30,911 nucleotides of DNA, taken from the IMG/VR virus record IMGVR_UViG_3300031977_000172, positions 1 through 30,911 of that record. The stretch is one strand, 5' to 3'. Positions 28,840-30,873 of this stretch are shown here, piece by piece. Within the stretch, counting starts at the first letter, position 1, and each line of letters begins with the position of its first letter. The stretch is from a virus. A program made the position numbers and the translations under genes. Below the pieces are notes generated by a model. That model was given only the letters and a program-made list of their open reading frames with translations, made no database searches and was not told where the DNA came from.

Positions 28840-29095
28840 CCCCTTAAATGTTCAATGCATCAAAAATAGGAACATTGTTCTGCATTTGCCCTGTTTTCCA
28901 GAACCTTGTTCTATGTAAACCAGTATATACGTATTGTGGTTAACACTCCATTTTCCTGATCTGTGTGTGTATACATACATATATACCACGTGACCCCCAC
29001 TGGCCCTTGCACTACCTGCTCTCACTGTGCAATTCCGTGCATTATGCAACGTCATGGCGTGTGGTGAAATCAAATCTGCTGCTTCATCTCACCTT

Positions 29096-29428
29096 CATAT
29101 CAAAGATATGTTTAGTTTCAGTGACTTACTTGTCTTCGACAACTGTTATGGAATCAGTTGCCACACTAAAGTGTGTAAGAAATGCTGACATATCACATCA
29201 AAGATGTGTTGTGATGCCGATGCTTAAAACATACCACCCACCATCTACGATGGTCAGATGCGTGATCCTACAAGCCGTATGTAGCTCTGCCAATGGTCAA
29301 TCCAACTGTCCAACGTTGGACACTTCACATCTAAAGATGTGGCAGAATTGTCACAGTTACTCTGCAATCCTAGGCCAAAAGCCTCGTGAGTTTCACGCAC
29401 GAACTTCAAAAATATATGAAATATTTTT
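29096..29428 (+). ncRNA. Array of ten small stem-loops in the leader
   Basis: Ten perfect hairpins (stem/loop): 29096-29110 (6/3), 29130-29142 (5/3), 29162-29175 (6/2), 29194-29208 (6/3), 29240-29254 (6/3), 29308-29321 (6/2), 29326-29341 (6/4), 29372-29384 (4/5), 29385-29397 (5/3) and 29408-29428 (8/5). Three share arms of the type CAyATC/GATrTG with AAA or TAAA loops. TCTGCC at 29286 can pair with GGCAGA at 29341, enclosing two hairpins in a three-way junction. Whether this is an RNA, an origin or both is not decided by sequence. The ncRNA type is a proposal. Confidence 0.45.
29308..29321. repeat. Palindrome GTCCAACGTTGGAC, copy 1
   Basis: A 14-bp perfect palindrome in the leader. Near-identical copies lie at 30031 and 30696, with a partial copy at the right edge. 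I found it only in the plus-strand region. Confidence 0.8.
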
Positions 29429-29490
29429 TGCAGTCACATAGGAAACGACAGGCGCAGAGGATCACAGGAAGCAGCAAATTCAACTTATAC

Positions 29491-29576
29491 TATCTTCTAT
29501 TCGTTTCTAGTGATAGTTAATATATCTCCCTTTAGGGTGAGAGATATATGTAACTCTCACATAGAAACAGAAGATA
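29491..29576 (+). promoter_or_regulatory. Large stem-loop just before the first plus-strand gene
   Basis: An 86-nt imperfect hairpin. From outside in: TATCTTCT (29491) pairs with AGAAGATA (29569); GTTTCTA (29503) with TAGAAAC (29562); GTTA (29516) with TAAC (29551); TATATCT (29521) with AGATATA (29542); CCC (29528) with GGG (29535), around a TTTA loop. It ends 5 nt before the Shine-Dalgarno, so it could control translation or protect the mRNA 5' end. As it lacks a T run, it is unlikely to be a terminator. Confidence 0.7.
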
Positions 29577-29593
29577 GATAAAGGAGGCCAATC

Positions 29594-30196
29594 ATGGCAA
29601 AATCAGTTTCAATCAGCAAGTCAACTCAAGAAGGAACTTCTTTGGATACTTTAGTAAAAGAAGGCAAAGCCTTATATTCAATCTGGAAACAGACTAACAG
29701 TCTGAAAGACTCAACAAAAGCCAGAGGCTTTGATACTAGGCTTGGTAAATTGCTACAGCAATTGAAAGCTCAATCACCACTAGATAGTGGTCAGATCAGC
29801 AGACAAACTTTGGCAACATATCATGTTGACAAAATAGATCGTAGAAGACGATCTGAAGCTTTGTGGTTCGTTGAAAACGAAGTTGAGTGCCGAGAGTTCA
29901 TTAAGAACTCTAAGAAAGGTTTTACTTCTCTTACAGCTTTACAAGCTGCAATGCGTAAAGCTTCTAAGGAAGCTGAAGCTGAACCTACTGAAGTAGAAGC
30001 TGCTGATGATCAACCTTCTAAAGAAGAAGTGTCCAATGTTGGACGATCTTCCAAACCATCTAAAGATGATATCGTGAAAAGTATCATCAAAGCTTGTCAA
30101 TACTCTGGTATTGATTTACTTGACATTGCTGAAGCTTTAATGGAAATTGATACAGTCAGTGAAACTGACAATACAGAAATCAAGGAAGCAGCATAA
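29594..30196 (+). CDS. Plus-strand gene 1, unknown, hairpin-rich coding sequence
   Basis: A 200-residue protein with a strong ribosome binding site (AAAGGAGG, 29580-29587). The first ~125 residues look helical and basic (KEGKALYSIWKQTNSLKDST; RQTLATYHVDKIDRRRRSEA; LWFVENEVECREFIK). An acidic, Glu/Ala-rich linker follows (AEAEPTEVEAADDQPSKEE). A last helical domain ends it (DDIVKSIIKACQYSGIDLLD, EALMEID). The basic core could bind nucleic acid, but no domain is recognised. About twenty small perfect hairpins occupy the coding DNA, one every ~30 bp, and the stop codon lies in the loop of one. An early regulatory role is a guess from position. Confidence 0.8.
   Translation: MAKSVSISKSTQEGTSLDTLVKEGKALYSIWKQTNSLKDSTKARGFDTRLGKLLQQLKAQSPLDSGQISRQTLATYHVDKIDRRRRSEALWFVENEVECREFIKNSKKGFTSLTALQAAMRKASKEAEAEPTEVEAADDQPSKEEVSNVGRSSKPSKDDIVKSIIKACQYSGIDLLDIAEALMEIDTVSETDNTEIKEAA
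30031..30044. repeat. Palindrome GTCCAATGTTGGAC, copy 2
   Basis: It lies inside plus-strand gene 1 and reads S-N-V-G in frame. It differs from copy 1 only at the centre (AT for AC) and is identical to copy 3. Confidence 0.8.
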
Positions 30197-30204
30197 AGCT
30201 GCTT
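30186..30204 (+). promoter_or_regulatory. Hairpin enclosing the stop codon of gene 1
   Basis: AAGCAGC pairs with GCTGCTT around the loop ATAAA, which holds the TAA stop (30194-30196). A G-T and a G-C pair extend the stem to 9. The extension by a G-T pair is what an RNA helix would allow. Confidence 0.6.
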
Positions 30205-30209
30205 TCACT

Positions 30210-30224
30210 TTAATCGGAGATTAA
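30210..30224 (+). promoter_or_regulatory. Hairpin holding the ribosome binding site of gene 2
   Basis: TTAATC pairs with GATTAA around the loop GGA. The Shine-Dalgarno GGAG (30216-30219) is therefore in the loop and first stem base, 7 nt before the ATG at 30227. The fold could limit or present the site. Confidence 0.6.
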
Positions 30225-30226
30225 CA

Positions 30227-30466
30227 ATGCAAGATTATTCTTATTTCAGTGATCTATACAAAGACGTTTATGGTTTTAGACCACGTAATATTCAGCCTAC
30301 TGCTGAATTGATGGATTATTTACAGTCTGAACTTGATCGTCAGATCAAGGAAGATCGTGAAGAAATGCAAAAAGAAATTGACATATTTATGTCAGTCGGA
30401 GCAGTTGACAAAGAGCAAGCTTTGCATTGGATAGATCAAGCTGAGTATTCAGCTTACTGGAGGTAA
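30227..30466 (+). CDS. Plus-strand gene 2, small acidic protein
   Basis: A 79-residue protein: MQDYSYFSDLYKDVYGFRPR, then a helix-rich acidic body (MDYLQSELDRQIKEDREEMQ, KEIDIFMSVGAV) and DKEQALHWIDQAEYSAYWR. The motif D-L-Y-K-D-V-Y-G-F-R-P-R occurs in several uncharacterised phage and marine bacterial proteins that I remember, but without a function. It contains four perfect hairpins in its coding DNA, at 30290, 30332, 30379 and 30438. The start follows a GGAG site in the hairpin at 30210, and the next gene begins 3 bp after its stop. Confidence 0.75.
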   Translation: MQDYSYFSDLYKDVYGFRPRNIQPTAELMDYLQSELDRQIKEDREEMQKEIDIFMSVGAVDKEQALHWIDQAEYSAYWR

Positions 30467-30469
30467 AAA

Positions 30470-30628
30470 ATGATACCATTTTTAATGTTTATAGTAAATG
30501 GCATGGCACTAATAACTATAGTGCTAATGGGATTTATGTTTGAAACTTGGCAAGCCATTCCAAATATGGTAATCATATTTGTGATTGTGATGGCAATTAA
30601 TTACATAGTAATGTATCTGGATGGATGA
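30470..30628 (+). CDS. Plus-strand gene 3, 52-residue membrane protein
   Basis: The reading is MIPFLMFIVNGMALITIVLM, GFMFETWQAIPNM, then VIIFVIVMAINYIVMYLDG. Two hydrophobic helices (about 3-24 and 33-50) flank a short polar loop with FETWQAIP. A strong GGAGG ribosome binding site stands 6 nt before the ATG, and the stop overlaps the next gene's start as ATGA. A two-helix membrane peptide in an early operon could act on the host membrane or exclude other phages, but nothing here decides that. Hairpins lie at 30506, 30561 (8-bp stem) and 30602. Confidence 0.7.
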   Translation: MIPFLMFIVNGMALITIVLMGFMFETWQAIPNMVIIFVIVMAINYIVMYLDG

Positions 30629-30813
30629 AAATGAAATTTACTGAAGTAAATACAAGGCGTTATAACGTATCGTCAGCTAGGCTGACTGACAAACCGTCCA
30701 ATGTTGGACAGAATGACAGACGTTATGAATTACAACGTAAGTTGTTCGAGAAAAAAATGCAACGTAATGCTCAGTCAGGTATCAAAGATACTGGGTGGTA
30801 CGTTGTTAAATAA
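30625..30813 (+). CDS. Plus-strand gene 4, small basic protein
   Basis: A 62-residue basic protein: MKMKFTEVNTRRYNVSSARL, TDKPSNVGQNDRRYELQRKL, FEKKMQRNAQSGIKDTGWYV, VK. The middle is a charged helix that could bind nucleic acid. It starts at the ATGA overlap with gene 3; an ATG two codons later is possible. The S-N-V-G residues are imposed by copy 3 of the GTCCAATGTTGGAC palindrome, as in gene 1. Several hairpins fill the gene (30636, 30672, 30779), and one at 30803-30817 spans the stop. No family is recognised. Confidence 0.7.
   Translation: MKMKFTEVNTRRYNVSSARLTDKPSNVGQNDRRYELQRKLFEKKMQRNAQSGIKDTGWYVVK
30696..30709. repeat. Palindrome GTCCAATGTTGGAC, copy 3
   Basis: Inside plus-strand gene 4, preceded by AAACC. 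The same AAACCGTCCAA string ends the window (30901-30911), so a fourth copy probably starts there and is cut by the edge. Confidence 0.8.
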
Positions 30814-30832
30814 ACAAATTAGTAGTCTCATA

Positions 30833-30873
30833 GTTATATAACACTTGAAATATATATGAAAGTGTTATATAAC
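30833..30873. promoter_or_regulatory. 14-bp perfect inverted repeat after gene 4
   Basis: GTTATATAACACTT (30833-30846) and its exact complement (30860-30873) flank a 13-nt AT-rich loop. There is no T run after it, and both arms carry ACACTT/AAGTGT, a half-site also found in the repeats at 28704-28790. An operator or an mRNA 3'-end structure are both possible. Confidence 0.6.

Follow-up and report, generated by a model that had tools for sequence, protein, structure and literature searches.

Tiny hairpins in a phage early region are known from N4. The N4 early promoters have a stem of 5-7 base pairs (bp), a 3-nucleotide (nt) loop and a preferred C-G closing pair, bases that are not contacted being free if paired, and physiological supercoiling suffices to extrude such 5-7-bp DNA hairpins (PMC4496689). 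At the T4 oriF R-loop, the non-template strand is single-stranded and hypersensitive to single-strand cleavage, and helicase-less leading synthesis covers about 2.5 kilobases (kb) (PMC3016281). Perfect stems can also be created and repaired by template switching, a mechanism documented in RNA genes (PMC8794818). Here we describe a hairpin field at positions 29096-30817 (+ strand) of the virus record IMGVR_UViG_3300031977_000172, which was analysed over its whole 30,911 bases (hereafter, the window). The field comprises 31 perfect stems of at least 6 bp with 2-5-nt loops and covers a leader and four small genes, at the beginning of the rightward early genes and adjoining the leftward late genes. 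The terminase of the window shares 82-89% identity with its counterparts in roseophages CRP-1 and CRP-345 and in Puniceispirillum phage HMO-2011, and the window was therefore assigned to the HMO-2011-type marine phages, which are among the dominant, widespread marine phage groups (PMC9038755).

The field is like the N4 early promoters in placing tiny hairpins in a phage early region. However, N4 has three hairpins, each a promoter with fixed contact bases, whereas here there are dozens, also in genes, with no shared bases. Conserved contact bases in loop and stem at a fixed distance from a start site were not found, and no N4-like virion RNA polymerase of ~3,500 residues was present in HMO-2011, CRP-1 or CRP-345, as judged from size only (largest annotated proteins of about 1,100-1,250 amino acids). 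Promoters of the N4 virion RNA polymerase type were rejected on these two grounds. The T4 oriF and ColE1-type R-loop origins share a transcribed leader by early genes; their own features are an exposed non-template strand and a first leading-strand synthesis of a few kb (PMC3016281), but they have no multi-kb hairpin-saturated strand, and an origin is here only proposed. Template-switch hairpins (PMC8794818) resemble the field in their perfect Watson-Crick stems and paired changes, and differ from it in that hairpins here were gained mostly step by step, have a tuned stability, keep a conserved place and are restricted to one module. Structured viral messenger RNAs (mRNAs) and genome-scale ordered RNA structure also have covarying stems across coding sequence, whereas the stems here are Watson-Crick only, strand-symmetric, short and isolated, with a length ceiling. 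As to the stoperators of mycobacteriophage L5, the likeness of a short element repeated between early genes holds for the repeat GTCCAAYGTTGGAC only, the rest of the field being without common sequence. A description of such a field was not found in the open-licence literature, which is weak evidence, most subscription journals being outside it. We regard the field as a new phenomenon; it corresponds neither to N4 promoters nor to an operator array nor, by the G-U test given below, to ordinary conserved mRNA structure; its mechanism is uncertain.

Hairpins were scanned as perfect stems of at least 6 bp with loops of 2-6 nt. Within 29096-30817, the 31 hairpins compare with 2.3 ± 1.4 (maximum 8) in 200 dinucleotide-preserving shuffles of the segment, and the 48 stems of at least 5 bp with 8.3 ± 2.8. 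The initial annotation of this DNA had counted about 45 stems, about thirty of them of at least 6 bp, and both figures were right; the excess, which it had put at roughly tenfold, is 13-fold. It is restricted to 2-5-nt loops, with no comparable excess in 29096-30817 for loops of 0, 1 or 6-8 nt. Outside the field the window is at chance (0-4 hairpins per kb vs 14-18 per kb inside). The spacing between consecutive hairpins has no single period.

In a second control, synonymous codons were permuted inside genes, so that protein and codon usage were kept. The late genes then gave 19 hairpins against a mean of 18.8, in agreement with the earlier remark that the minus-strand genes have no comparable run. 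Gene 1 had 14 hairpins vs 1.7 (maximum 6), and the same gene pooled over 25 relatives had 193 vs 28.8 ± 4.5. The counts were 4 vs 0.65 for gene 2, 3 vs 0.26 for gene 4 and 1 vs 0.15 for gene 3. The stems had been said to run through the leader and all four genes, which stands for the leader and genes 1, 2 and 4, gene 3 adding little. An origin by chance, composition or codon usage is practically untenable and was refuted, because both kinds of shuffle were exceeded, the late-gene controls were at chance and the excess recurred in 54 of 54 sequences.

These 54 sequences are the window and 53 IMG/VR relatives matched by a gene-1 search. The field was present in all of them, each gene-1 region having more hairpins than every one of its 40 shuffles (median excess about 11-fold). 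HMO-2011, which encodes a remote gene-1 homologue (hhalign probability 97), has 23 hairpins vs 2.2 shuffled. The late genes have about 1 hairpin per kb and the leader has 10; the field peaks at 15 per kb over the first 500 bases of gene 1, and by 3-4 kb the density is down to about 2 per kb. The field starts downstream of the presumed early promoter, and position 30817, earlier taken as its limit, is not its end: in relatives with longer sequence it fades over about 4 kb. The cultured HMO-type phages CRP-2, CRP-207, CRP-3 and CRP-738, without a recognisable gene 1, had no excess in the early stretch tested, and CRP-9 had a weaker one. The tested CRP-9 stretch (L069, 52500-56157) has a different leader with 10 hairpins vs 2.0, including three GTTTAA-NN-TTAAAC copies. 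Since the field is absent in HMO-type phages that lack gene 1 and carry the DNA polymerase gene, it travels with the leader and gene 1 and not with the DNA polymerase. Homologous genes at differing distances were found in 4 pairs, too few to compare position with gene identity.

Leader hairpins hold their position between conserved linkers while both arms change. At 29162-29175 (+ strand, CACACTaaAGTGTG), the CACACT/AGTGTG stem of the window is replaced in relatives by about a dozen alternative perfect stems (CACTAT/ATAGTG, CACTCT/AGAGTG, CAGTGT/ACACTG, CATGCT/AGCATG, CACCAC/GTGGTG and others), with up to four Watson-Crick pair types per position and zero G-U. In gene 1 both arms also co-vary, even with coordinated amino-acid changes (AAGAAG-gaa-CTTCTT, AAGTTG-gaa-CAACTT, TTGAAG-gaa-CTTCAA). 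Double changes from one Watson-Crick pair to another were 3-5-fold above independence, the expectation being calculated from the counts; these counts, like those of long-stem G-U pairs and of the repeated element below, refer to the relatives' genomes only, the window's own sequence being left out. Per site, arms change less than loops (0.073 vs 0.129). Rapid arm-to-arm conversion was rejected, as among these relatives at 1.7% flank divergence there were 47 one-arm changes and 0 double changes.

Stem lengths were pooled over 29 non-redundant sequences. For 3-nt loops the commonest length is exactly 6 bp (5 bp, 168 stems; 6 bp, 196; 7 bp, 34; 8 bp, 2) and for 2-nt loops 6-7 bp, stems above 7 bp being rare. 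Stem length falls as GC content rises (Spearman -0.41, n=321; leader, -0.62, n=65), compared with -0.17 for the chance hairpins of late regions. That AT-rich stems are longer, beyond the control, is expected under selection for a limited stability range, and stability therefore appears selected. In 63 of 70 leader hairpins the loop is closed by a pyrimidine-purine pair, which is what a folded hairpin should show, and the over 300 unique hairpins have many different loops and closing pairs. Conserved place, compensation and tuned stability show that natural selection maintains the hairpins, and that it acts on pairing and stability, not on sequence, both in the non-coding leader and within genes.

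Pairing rules can distinguish RNA from DNA. RNA tolerates a G-U pair and not A-C, the single defects of RNA stems are expected to be mostly G-U on the transcribed strand, and natural RNA helices usually have about 10% G-U. Here, single stem defects were G-U in 78 cases and A-C in 78, and at conserved loci in 3 vs 11. Gains from G-U and A-C numbered 22 vs 21, and losses to them 23 vs 19. Even in the 35-40-pair stem upstream of gene 1, where stability is ample, G-U pairs are about 2% (+ strand, 1.7%; - strand, 2.4%; shuffled-sequence folds, 11%). Folding energy does not differ between the two strands. The minihairpins thus follow Watson-Crick rules without special G-U tolerance on either strand. 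As G-U is no better tolerated than A-C, this pattern argues for DNA-like pairing, or for a reader insisting on Watson-Crick geometry, rather than ordinary mRNA structure. Of the marks of a conserved mRNA or cis-regulatory RNA structure, compensatory changes were found, and preferred acceptance of G-U over A-C and an Rfam match were not.

The reading we put first, tentatively and at less than even confidence, is that selected minihairpins are formed in single-stranded DNA of the early segment. The single strand in which the hairpins would work is most likely the coding (+) one, opened near the early promoter by a transcription bubble or R-loop, by strand displacement where a transcript primes replication that begins with the leading strand, or by supercoil-driven extrusion of the kind known from the N4 promoters. 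Hairpins of limited stability would protect the opened strand against re-annealing or degradation, or label it for a loader, and would still pose little obstacle to copying; the distance of about 4 kb over which the field fades would show how far the segment opens. As a guess, the gene-1 protein, which invariably accompanies the field, is a candidate partner of the hairpins. The start below the promoter, the one-sided kb-scale fade, the indifference to coding or non-coding sequence, the ceiling on stem strength and the DNA-like pairing fit this reading. We consider it not far short of an even bet that, in a group of double-stranded DNA phages, the first-expressed 2-4 kb has evolved, together with the genes in it, to form tuned DNA minihairpins when single-stranded, a sequence-free, structure-coded DNA signal laid over the protein code and possibly the fingerprint of genome opening for replication or early expression. 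If the hairpins act in DNA, they would be a second information layer across coding sequence, read by shape alone, and a clue to how these phages, whose molecular biology has received little study, replicate or express their early genes.

Several observations count against single-stranded DNA as the acting form, and some of them fit RNA equally. Interior defects had a mild excess of G-U (34 vs 15 A-C, 1.6% of pairs); G-T is more stable than A-C in DNA also. Ribosome-binding sites sit in hairpin loops, with about 40 unique matches of the CggaG type vs 14 in a larger control set, and triloops are A-rich on the + strand; the + strand is thus likely the relevant one, whether as RNA or as DNA. Gene direction confounds the GC-skew minimum seen at the leader. 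Over short times arms change like flanks (0.073 vs 0.071, the flanks being selected for identity); single hairpins are therefore only weakly constrained, and their turnover is high. A close rival, which we hold possible while somewhat unlikely, is that the hairpins structure the early mRNA, protecting the transcript, controlling translation or binding a Watson-Crick-strict phage protein (perhaps that of gene 1) whatever the stem sequence. Besides the interior G-U excess and the A-rich loops, it would explain why the field begins below the presumed promoter and follows the direction of transcription, and why GGA or GGAG recurs in the loops of otherwise different pre-gene hairpins. Against it stand the equal overall acceptance of G-U and A-C, the scarcity of G-U in the long stem and the equal energies of both strands. 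Should the hairpins act in RNA, they would be a rare RNA structure system rejecting G-U pairs. Either reading is testable, as the isolates CRP-1, CRP-345 and HMO-2011 exist.

A mutational origin, in which fold-back template switching perfects near-palindromes of the early segment with little or no function, we regard as quite unlikely. It would account for perfect stems without G-U, for the near equality of arm and flank rates and for the stem-length peak at exactly 6 bp. In unpolarised pairs of close relatives (L002-L054), hand-counted multi-base differences affected the 3' arm at 14 loci and the 5' arm at 3, whereas single-base changes had no arm bias (66 vs 70); fold-back copying on the nascent + strand could be a partial source of this variation, the asymmetry being otherwise unexplained. 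However, 34 of 53 polarised hairpin gains were single-base steps and only 5 needed several changes within one arm (3 vs 2 by arm), stem length is tuned to GC content, leader hairpins keep their place across deep divergence, and the HMO-type phages without gene 1 have the DNA polymerase gene yet no field. Template switching is probably a minor source at most. Less probable still are duplex palindromes for dimeric regulators, that is, operator or stoperator sites. The GTCC-R-A-NN-T-Y-GGAC repeat with its conserved letters speaks for them, but a shared duplex sequence is confined to the GTCCAAYGTTGGAC repeat, and the remaining hairpins differ in sequence and have spacers of 2 to 5 nt, so that a regulator could not recognise them as duplex. 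The initial annotation had offered three causes. Of a selected structured early transcript, the selection was borne out and the RNA form was not; DNA hairpins fit the pairing rules, with a polymerase or replication system as their possible user; and template switching was reduced to the minor role given above. The outcomes it had named as fatal to the field (similar density in shuffled controls, equal density in minus-strand genes, no conservation or covariation of arms in relatives) did not occur: the shuffled controls it had asked for lay far below the observed density, and in the relatives hairpin places were conserved, with compensatory arm changes.

The presumed early promoter and 5' leader end at 28900-29095 (+ strand; GTGGTTAACACT ... 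TTTCCTGATCTGTGTG) is hairpin-free and conserved in the relatives' leaders; no consensus + strand promoter was found in it. The leader hairpins, all on the + strand, begin with CATATCaaaGATATG at 29096-29110, whose place is taken by other stems in relatives. At 29140-29160 follows CAACTG-ttatggaat-CAGTTG, with a 9-nt loop, which is mostly letter-identical across most relatives' leaders. The hairpin CACATCaaaGATGTG at 29194-29208 has CACACC/GGTGTG and CACAAC/GTTGTG as counterparts, and AAAAATATatgaaATATTTTT at 29408-29428, flanked by conserved CTTC and TGCAG, has AGAATAC/GTATTCT, GCAATC/GATTGC and GGTATC/GATACC. Linkers between the leader hairpins are conserved to the letter (CTCGTGAGTTT..GCGCACGAACTTC and GAAACGACAGGCGCAGAGGATC, e.g. 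window 29380-29475), which suggests a larger leader structure or protein sites that are not in Rfam; no Rfam match was obtained in the window at gathering thresholds.

The four early genes, also on the + strand, encode products without a Pfam or PHROGs family, save for a weak match of gene 2 to phrog_21968, of unknown function. Gene 1 (29594-30196, 200 amino acids) is the first early gene and carries its 14 hairpins in the coding sequence. Gene 2 (30227-30466, 79 amino acids) has four, gene 3 (30470-30628, 52 amino acids) one or two, and gene 4 (30625-30813, 62 amino acids) three, including a copy of the repeated element. The structure model of the gene-1 product (predicted local distance difference test score 72) had no PDB match better than E 0.29. 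It had one viral match at E≤0.001, the 205-amino-acid protein S4S2E1, probably the HMO-2011 gene-1 homologue. In the window (29950-30060) and in relatives, the C-terminal linker of the gene-1 protein seems to lengthen through added Ala-Lys-Ala units that are encoded by hairpins (CTGCTaaAGCAG and variants), whereby the hairpins shape the protein sequence.

Just upstream of the gene-1 ribosome-binding site lies a bulged long stem-loop of about 35-40 pairs (29490-29577, + strand). It is also found in 18 aligned relatives and, with a different sequence, in HMO-2011; among relatives its sequence diverges while shape and bulges are retained. Its shape may resemble folded single-strand recombination sites such as integron attC, and a tyrosine integrase is often encoded by these phage genomes.

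The arms had been described as mostly unlike in sequence, which is so in general, except that one hairpin is a repeated element, GTCCAAYGTTGGAC, with three copies in the window. The leader copy (29307-29322, + strand, TGTCCAAcgTTGGACA; core at 29308) belongs to the family GTCC-R-A-NN-T-Y-GGAC, the second lies within gene 1 (30031-30044), where it encodes S-N-V-G, and the third within gene 4 (30696-30709), both also on the + strand. In many relatives it is likewise a true repeat, with copies in leader and gene 1 and close to later early genes. Its variable pair is Watson-Crick in 264 of 271 matches (A-T 234, G-C 30, G-T 6, A-C 1). It could be a regulator site or a gene-module marker.

Hairpins with a ribosome-binding GGA or GGAG in the loop and otherwise unrelated stems stand just before early-gene starts (TTAATCggaGATTAA, TAAACggaGTTTA, TGTTACggaGTAACA). 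The window has one, TTAATCggaGATTAA, directly before gene 2 (30210-30224, + strand), and others occur in L008, L009, L010, L011, L017, L053, L055 and L056. Beyond gene 4, at 30833-30873 (+ strand), a 14-bp AT-rich palindrome consists of GTTATATAACACTT, 13 nt and AAGTGTTATATAAC, with counterparts upstream of other early genes in relatives. It recurs in L002, L005, L006 and L008, with a GTCCAA element after it in several relatives, and looks like a module boundary.

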